From the NCBI RefSeq assembly GCF_013302895.1, contig NZ_VJOK01000001.1, positions 2,325,329 to 2,389,328 on the forward strand: a DNA stretch of 64,000 nucleotides, in the 5' to 3' direction. The notes beneath the pieces are model-generated. The model was given only the letters and a program-made list of their open reading frames with translations. It did no database searches and was not told the origin of the DNA. The translations under genes were made by a program, and so were the position numbers. Below are positions 1,614-11,060 of this stretch, piece after piece. Every line of letters starts with the position of its first letter. The stretch's first letter is position 1. This DNA is from Streptomyces albus subsp. chlorinus. GTDB lineage: Bacteria > Actinomycetota > Actinomycetes > Streptomycetales > Streptomycetaceae.

Positions 1614-1772
1614 CTGGGCGCCGAGGGGTGCTCAGCAAATCGGTTCGGCCCAACCACGGGACCCGGCCGGGGGTACGGGGGTCGCCCCCGGAAGGACACA
1701 GCACTGGGCGCCGAGGGGTGCTCAGCAAATCGGTTCGGCCCCACGACGGGAGGGGTGCTCAGCAAATCGGTT
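1614..1772. repeat. Two and a half copies of the glyS upstream segment
   Basis: A 48-bp segment at 1614-1661 recurs at 1704-1751 with two mismatches, and its 23-bp core (GAGGGGTGCTCAGCAAATCG plus GTT) appears a third time at 1750-1772. The 42-bp palindromic element at 1662-1703 sits exactly between the first two copies. The copy nearest glyS includes a likely -35 (TTGCTG on the minus strand) for that gene, so the block looks like a duplicated promoter region. It accounts for most of the gap between glyS and znuA. Confidence 0.85.
1662..1703. repeat. Dispersed GC palindromic element, copy A
   Basis: This 42-bp sequence begins CCCGGCCGGGGGTACGGGGG and ends ACACAGCA. CCGGGGG can pair with CCCCCGG, and GGGGG with CCCCC across TCG. 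It is nearly identical to 10951-10993, and in both places its ACACAGCA end abuts a second copy of flanking host sequence. It has no coding capacity. It is best described as a REP/MITE-like interspersed element of unknown mechanism. Confidence 0.75.
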
Positions 1773-10173: not shown

Positions 10174-10932
10174 CTAACCGCTCGATGCCTGCCGCACGTA
10201 CCGCAGGGAACGCAGCCCCCGCTCCAGATGCCAGTGCAGATACGCGGAGACCAGGCCGGAGCCCTCCCGGCAGTGCCGGGGCTCGGCGGCGTCCGCCGTC
10301 TCCCAGTCCCCGGCCAGCAGGGCCCCCAGCAGCCGCAGCGCCTCCGGCGAGGGCACCACACTGCCCGGCACCCGGCAGTCGCCGCACACCACGCCGCCCG
10401 AGGCCACGGAGAAGAACCGGTTCGGGCCCGGCAGCCCGCACTTGGCGCAGTCCGCGAAACTGGGGGCGTAACCGCCCATCGCCAAGGAGCGCAGCAGGAA
10501 GGCGTCCAGCACCAGGTTCGCGCTGTGCTCGCCCGAGGCGAGGGTACGCAGACCGCCGACCAGCAGCAGGTACTGCTGCACGTTCGGCTCGCCCTCGTGG
10601 TCGGTGAACCGCTCGGCCGTCTCCAGCATGGCCGTCCCGGCGGTGTAGCGGTCGTAGTCCCCCACGATGCCCCGGCCGTACGGGGCGATCGTCTCCGTCT
10701 GCGTGCAGAGCGGGAGCCCCCGCCCCACCAGCTCGCTGCCCCGCGCGAAGAACTGCACGTCCACATGGCTGAAGGGCTCCAGCCGCGCCCCGAACTTCGA
10801 CTTGGTCCGCCGCACCCCCCGGGCCACCGCCCGCACCCTCCCGTGCCCACGCGTGAGCAACGTGATGATGCGGTCGGCCTCTCCCAGCTTCTGGGTACGC
10901 AGCACGATGCCGTCATCGCGGAACAAGCTCAC
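10174..10932 (-). CDS. recO: DNA repair protein RecO, second copy of start used
   Basis: This 252-aa recombination mediator of the RecFOR pathway loads RecA onto SSB-coated DNA. It has an N-terminal OB fold and a helical C-terminal domain with a zinc finger (CAKC and CGDC). GTG 10932 gives [20 protein letters not shown], the family N-terminus. GTG 10989 would add 19 residues read from the palindromic element and is not credible. The GTG overlaps the TGA of the upstream 43-aa ORF (GTGA), so translation is probably coupled to it. Confidence 0.93.
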
Positions 10933-11053
10933 GCGCCCACCGCCCCGCGCCCCGGCCGGGGGTACGGGGGTCGCCCCCCGGGAGAACACAGCATGATGCG
11001 GTCGGCCTCACCGAGCTTCTGGGTACGCAGCACGATGCCGTCGTCGCGGAACA
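10866..11053. repeat. Duplicated 5' end of recO
   Basis: The 60 bp at 10866-10925 recurs at 10994-11053 with three mismatches, and the similarity continues at the protein level to the start codons (10932 and 11060). Both copies encode the same first 22 residues, apart from GTG versus ATG. All base differences are synonymous. The palindromic element at 10951-10993 separates them. Confidence 0.95.
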
Positions 11054-11060
11054 GGGACAT
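10929..11060 (-). CDS. 43-aa ORF: duplicated RecO N-terminus plus palindrome-encoded tail
   Basis: ATG 11060 opens [20 protein letters not shown] and RI, identical to the RecO N-terminus, then enters the element and reads MLCSPGGRPPYPRPGRG before stopping at TGA 10929, which overlaps the GTG of recO. GAGAAT six bases before the ATG looks like the original leaderless recO promoter. It is probably the ancestral recO start, now an upstream ORF that feeds ribosomes to the intact gene. A stable peptide is not implied. Confidence 0.6.
   Translation of the reverse strand: MSLFRDDGIVLRTQKLGEADRIMLCSPGGRPPYPRPGRGAVGA
10951..10993. repeat. Dispersed GC palindromic element, copy B
   Basis: This 43-bp sequence, CCCGGCCGGGGGTACGGGGG through ACACAGCA, differs from copy A (1662-1703) by one extra C and two or three substitutions. 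It separates the two copies of the recO 5' end. Its ACACAGCA end abuts the upstream copy directly. Confidence 0.75.

Follow-up and report, generated by a model that had tools for sequence, protein, structure and literature searches.

MIRUs of mycobacteria occur as tandem copies in variable number and have DTGA target sites. A review that treats them describes them as seemingly mobile, as inserting at start codons, and as having an ORF coupled to the gene at -4 nt (PMC12548453). The palindromic elements of Rickettsia (RPEs) are repeats found inside reading frames, which they do not break; the account we draw on gives them a length of about 150 bp and has them add a peptide to the protein (PMC10969869). 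Leaderless mRNAs are reported to come from about 21% of primary start sites in S. coelicolor (PMC4895711).

Within the window (the whole 64,000-nucleotide stretch of Streptomyces albus subsp. chlorinus DNA analysed here), the first 68 bp of recO are present twice, and a palindromic element of about 40 bp, which we call E, lies between the copies. Judged by analogy, cassettes made of E and duplicated host DNA look as if they work in a manner similar to MIRUs, the closest known kind. At recO, at two ABC-transporter gene junctions and at a further locus (L181), a small ORF stops in a 4-nt overlap with the downstream start, and tandem copies occur in variable number across species (one to five coupled ORFs ahead of recO; four E copies at L227). 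With regard to DTGA-site insertion, E lies at such overlaps at the two ABC junctions and L181, whereas at recO the overlap was created; the site at the gene read as glyS is a promoter, and several E sites without a flanking repeat lie elsewhere. In contrast to a MIRU, an E cassette has a palindromic constant part of no more than about 40 bp, and much of each unit is copied from the adjacent host gene, so that units differ between genes; the likeness is one of arrangement, with the exact E pattern found only in Streptomyces records. Coupling at recO also appears to be a new arrangement, unlike that of MIRUs, given that recO looks leaderless in most relatives.

At one gene (L239) E may resemble RPEs, being an in-frame insertion of 33 bases net against relatives, but its length is about 40 bp rather than 150 bp and at recO it makes a separate mini-ORF. 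Like MITEs and REP sequences, E is small, dispersed and without a transposase of its own. In contrast to MITEs, its usual form has no terminal inverted repeats, and its flanking repeats measure 23-110 bp or are absent, in place of a short target duplication of fixed length; in contrast to REP/RAYT systems, the Y1 transposase family PF01797 gave 0 matches in the S. albus subsp. chlorinus genome, the one genome searched. Leaderless upstream ORFs of actinobacteria would share the leaderless start and the coupling to a downstream gene, but here the ORF consists of a repeat element joined to a copy of the 5' end of the gene that it precedes.

The recO start region in the window

All features of this region lie on the minus strand. 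The gene itself (10174-10932) encodes 252 aa plus stop and matches RecO_N (5.3e-26) and RecO_C (3.8e-35). Its genuine 5' end, with a GTG start, occupies 10932-10865, and the upstream copy, with an ATG start, occupies 11060-10993. The copies differ at seven bases: the start codon (A/G), a serine codon (TCC/AGC, two differences), CTG/TTG, GAC/GAT, CTC/CTG and GGT/GGA. Both translate to the same 23-letter peptide, and apart from ATG/GTG all the changes are synonymous. A sequence-only reading of this DNA had reported a doubling of the first 22 codons within 10866-11060 with seven differences, all synonymous apart from the start codon; base-by-base comparison of the copies bears out these coordinates and the count of seven. 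When the whole window was scanned for the best ungapped 68-base match at every lag from 70 to 1999, the recO pair ranked first (61/68, lag 128), which rules out a chance origin of the repeat. The runner-up (53/68, lag 90, from 1601) surrounds the one further place in the window that fits the E pattern.

Six bases ahead of the upstream ATG stands GAGAAT (11072-11067), a -10-like hexamer of a leaderless-type promoter. Between the copies lies E (10991-10952; CTGTGTTCTCCCGGGGG-GCGA-CCCCCGTACCCCCGGCCGG), which is separated from the second copy by a G-rich, Shine-Dalgarno-like spacer of 19 bp (10951-10933). A mini-ORF of 43 aa (11060-10929, stop included) runs from the ATG through E, read in this frame as LCSPGGRPPYPRP, to a TGA (10931-10929) that overlaps the recO GTG (10932-10930). 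The same reading had described this order of ATG, GAGAAT, palindromic element and overlapping TGA, as well as the 43-aa ORF ahead of recO, and at the level of sequence it was right on each. Predicted folding of the 5' 181 nt of RNA was no better than that of shuffled sequences (z 0.10), and E folded as single-stranded DNA was equally unremarkable against shuffles (z 0.33).

Our main reading, to which we give a probability of about three in four, is that the recO duplication is the host-derived part of an E repeat cassette and that a reinitiation relay to recO has been kept by selection. We infer that the insertion of E and the duplication happened in a single event, by which E would have come to sit at the recO start with a duplication of the adjoining 68 bp abutting its left end. 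The duplicated start, E and the G-rich spacer would then form a 128-bp unit amounting to one mini-ORF, whose stop overlaps the recO start codon (ATGA/GTGA), and this unit could multiply into tandem relays or decay.

Element E and its flanking duplications

The E pattern is CTGTGTTYTCCCGGGGG-NNNN-CCCCCGKACCCCCGG plus a few bases. In a collection of 84,980 species its exact form matched 19 stretches, all titled Streptomyces, and with up to two mismatches it is present in 23 of 121 genomes of the genus. A 40-base E query had no match in plasmids, and an Rfam search of five loci (L008, L157, L182, L195 and L175) returned two matches at chance level (expectation values 0.54 and 0.83). Among the matches listed in a literature search, no title or abstract opening described E or a Streptomyces recO duplication, which does not imply absence from print. 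A perfectly palindromic relative of E, consisting of the left arm followed by its own complement, occurs in L251 at the site of L195.

The in-frame insertion at L239, in a gene that we take to be CorA-like, was read against five full same-strand relatives, with reverse-strand rows ignored; the solo site L195 was left out of this comparison, because its relatives had diverged too far and some of them aligned in reverse orientation. The arrangement at L168 looks similar. At L160 and L230, E-like sequence stands in frame at the N-terminus of a gene that, from its appearance, is presumably a guanylate kinase.

We grouped 55 E copies by flanking sequence into 24 clusters, a low count because array flanks themselves contain E and clustering over-merges (L171, at another gene but the same site as L237, was placed in the ABC-junction cluster). 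In nine of the 24 clusters, a long repeat of host DNA is seen directly in the flanks, scoring above the maximum (16) of 552 cross-cluster controls. This repeat ends 0-2 bases from the left end of E in eight of the nine, and the exception (L210) has a second E-like copy between repeat and E. Six of the nine have AA just after the second copy. In L180, L171 and L210 the repeat belongs to an array, another E-like end preceding it. No flanking repeat was found in the remaining 15 clusters, so duplication is not obligatory on E insertion. The stricter pattern of this test omitted the copies L003, L004, L006 and L007 of the S. albus subsp. chlorinus genome. A first flank test gave scores of 44 for L164 (the same as L003), 39.5 for L163 (L004) and 16.5 for L162 (L007), which stand outside the nine of 24. 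That test, in which 10 of 36 scored above the 99% control (the controls peaked at 115 and distal same-locus comparisons at 146), was superseded by the clustered one; its controls had included orthologous sites and tandem arrays, and its pattern missed L171 and L192.

The second E of the window (1663-1702, minus strand; L164) lies upstream of a gene that we take, from its protein start, to be glyS. It is flanked by two copies of a 49-bp segment of that gene's promoter, the left at 1703-1751 and the right at 1613-1661, both on the minus strand. Of 11 relatives fetched for this site, the seven that were readable all have a single promoter as judged by eye; here it is doubled around E. A further partial repeat lies upstream of the 1613-1751 duplication. 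The only two E-pattern matches in the window are each flanked by one of its two best direct repeats and, because nine of 24 clusters show flanking repeats as well as this second E, the recO duplication goes with E. Other direct repeats of the window, near 2258, 43345 and 44944, are 51/68 identical at lags of 96, 81 and 76, and contain no E match.

E and host segments also alternate in tandem arrays with units of 66-111 bp. Units measure 80 bp in L227, 92 in L234, 111 in L237 and 92 in L238.

Replication slippage offers another origin, in which a simple tandem duplication came first and E either entered the junction afterwards or arose as a by-product. Tandem arrays can grow in this way, the duplication could predate E, and 15 of 24 clusters have E without any duplication. 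It would leave unaccounted for, however, that long repeats stop at the left end of E in eight clusters and that the best two repeats of the window surround its only two E matches, and we regard slippage as unlikely. The cassette reading can be carried further, if doubtfully: E might be a mobile core that copies itself with variable adjacent host DNA and so builds tandem coupled mini-ORF relays that tune translation. Its mechanism, with one fixed end and variable flanking duplications, would be unlike that of known short transposable elements. These observations point to a small Streptomyces repeat whose copies often accompany long duplications.

Coupled ORFs ahead of recO and at other gene junctions

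We compared the locus with recO in other Streptomyces. We searched 150 genus genomes, that of S. albus subsp. chlorinus included; all 150 gave matches and 149 gave readable recO loci; one assembly (G001, 79% complete) gave weak matches only. An upstream ORF precedes recO in 24 of the 149 loci, mostly as a copy of the recO 5' end in states from intact to decayed (22 by script; L010 and L013 by a relaxed -10 pattern). A -10-like motif placed for a leaderless start stands directly before a single-copy recO in 113 loci by the script's pattern, and variant motifs were recognised by eye in 11 more; L143, masked at the recO start, belongs to neither the 24 nor these 124. On this comparison, a minority of Streptomyces species carry an E-type repeat and a duplicated recO start as a small extra ORF. 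Some mini-ORF loci (e.g. L103 and L118) have no recognisable E. The sequence-only reading had allowed that resequencing might reduce the duplication to an assembly artefact and had proposed alignment with relatives; an artefact is ruled out, as the duplication or upstream ORF recurs in these 24 loci and separate assemblies carry the duplication, some within one contig (e.g. G110 and G159).

A TGA overlapping the recO start is seen to close the upstream ORF, or the last ORF of a relay, in every one of the 24. Among the 22 script loci, which like the 24 include related genomes and are not independent, the ORF is open without a stop up to this TGA and the start-to-recO distance takes 14 distinct values from 32 to 260 nt, all of them 2 modulo 3. 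Because 14 lengths share one frame, each with a chance of one third, this spacing would be hard to reach by drift. The single upstream ORF of L013 likewise ends overlapping recO, and in L010 the stop of a 15-aa ORF overlaps a second ORF of 43 aa, whose own stop overlaps recO. L036 also has a second, more distant candidate start, whose ORF ends 109 bases short of recO. The arrays L228 (66-bp unit) and L237 (111-bp unit), which no coupled gene follows as judged by eye, are not 2 modulo 3, which suggests that the rule reflects selection and not E itself.

A second sample of 392 genomes, with the first 150 again included, yielded a best 30 loci, of which 16 from new genomes were tested. Fifteen have an ORF or relay ending in overlap with the recO start, and the sixteenth (L280) ends in TGATG with a one-base overlap; chosen by match quality, these 16 support the rule and give no frequency. 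Tandem units are directly visible at recO as successive coupled ORFs: five in L287 (around G159:C1:2850418-2850693), all encoding the same 43-aa peptide, four in L289, three in L276 and two in L288.

Relays were also found away from recO. Two ABC-transporter gene junctions carry one in 18 of 19 loci: the first lies between a BPD_transp_1 pair, and the second between an ABC2 membrane gene and an upstream partner without a Pfam match in the stretch scanned. At these junctions E is antisense, and E with duplicated host DNA forms an ORF of 31-35 aa (18 loci) that begins overlapping the stop of the upstream gene and ends overlapping the start of the downstream gene; tandem copies produce successive ORFs. 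In the exception (L006, the second junction in the S. albus subsp. chlorinus genome), the ATGs are 90 bases apart and the frame enters the downstream gene, as read by eye; judging from the sequence, that gene may carry a 30-codon N-terminal extension. Positions 1482-1575 of L006 hold a decayed E and two ATGA sites 90 bases apart (by eye). A further relay lies between two TldD/PmbA-like genes at L181, the only one we used from a scan in which chance also produced chains (at L227, in both directions, and at L180, L213, L005 and L007). Across recO, the ABC junctions and L181, it is thus mainly the stop/start overlap that is preserved, irrespective of the peptide and of E orientation.

On these patterns, the most likely way in which RecO is made is by termination-reinitiation from a presumably leaderless mini-ORF. 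From the -10 spacing, and because leaderless mRNAs are common in S. coelicolor, we infer that transcription starts at the upstream ATG. As the old promoter would now begin the transcript at the mini-ORF ATG, ribosomes would load on that ATG without a leader, stop at the overlap and initiate again on recO, aided by the G-rich Shine-Dalgarno-like spacer. Selection would hold frame and overlap while the mini-ORF peptide drifts. The dependence of recO on reinitiation after the upstream ORF, put forward by the sequence-only reading, gains comparative support from the overlaps in 24 of 24 and 15 of 16 loci. Such a history would be a natural route by which a gene that looks leaderless comes to depend on reinitiation, in some cases behind as many as five coupled ORFs in succession. 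The varied lengths, peptides and copy numbers before the same gene are natural experiments in which the efficiency of bacterial termination-reinitiation could be measured. Given the role of recO in DNA repair, the number of copies might also adjust repair.

Shine-Dalgarno-like pairing before recO is stronger with a mini-ORF (median -9.35 kcal/mol, 24 loci) than without (-4.1 kcal/mol, 124 loci; p = 6e-14), so some direct initiation at recO may occur. The mini-ORF could on this basis be neutral debris, irrelevant to a gene that initiates independently at the spacer, and pairing does exceed the mean of shuffles of the same bases in 21 of the 24 loci. The signal may in part be the G-rich spacer brought by the cassette, and all 24 loci keep the overlap across 14 lengths without an earlier stop, an arrangement that neutral drift would lose. 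We therefore give this explanation a low probability, about one in ten.

Divergence of the copies and the upstream peptide

Ten loci have an alignable, near-complete upstream copy, and in these between 1 and 14 of the 68 bases are changed from one copy to the other, with 0-5 nonsynonymous codons; in L010 a single base is changed. With L011 (a codon deletion) excluded from the means, upstream and downstream copies of the same genome were identical at 60.3/68 bases, compared to 57.8/68 when paired across genomes (permutation of the same-genome excess, 0.0001). Upstream copies compared across genomes (60.7/68) were as alike as within-genome pairs, and downstream copies across genomes were identical at 58.6/68. 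These similarities fit local duplication or homogenisation, with the real RecO copy drifting synonymously.

The synonymous differences had been read as coding constraint on both copies, a claim that the relatives do not support: their upstream copies lose codons, undergo nonsynonymous changes and shrink to 11-19 aa. Constraint on the real RecO copy combined with a young or homogenised upstream copy gives the same pattern. Upstream peptides vary between a near-perfect RecO N-terminus with the element attached and remnants of 11 aa (L021 and L024), and in L087 the upstream ORF encodes an unlike peptide of 87 aa. A functional micropeptide, an N-terminal RecO fragment kept for its sequence, would agree with the several relatives that retain the 23-letter peptide intact and with the identical products of the five L287 ORFs; as other loci keep the overlap with unrelated peptides of 11-19 aa or a different one of 87 aa, it is very improbable.

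On a recO tree of 148 tips (L039, too short, was left out), the mini-ORF state needs 16 changes, compared to a mean of 22.6 and a lowest value of 20 for shuffled states. It occupies more than one clade, and the tree does not show a single origin followed by simple descent. This patchy spread and the seven synonymous differences in 68 bp would suit the earlier proposal that horizontal recombination brought one copy from a diverged recO, but we give import hardly any weight, because within-genome copies are more alike than upstream/downstream pairs across genomes, the L010 copies are a single base apart, and the repeat stops at E, an element with such duplications elsewhere.
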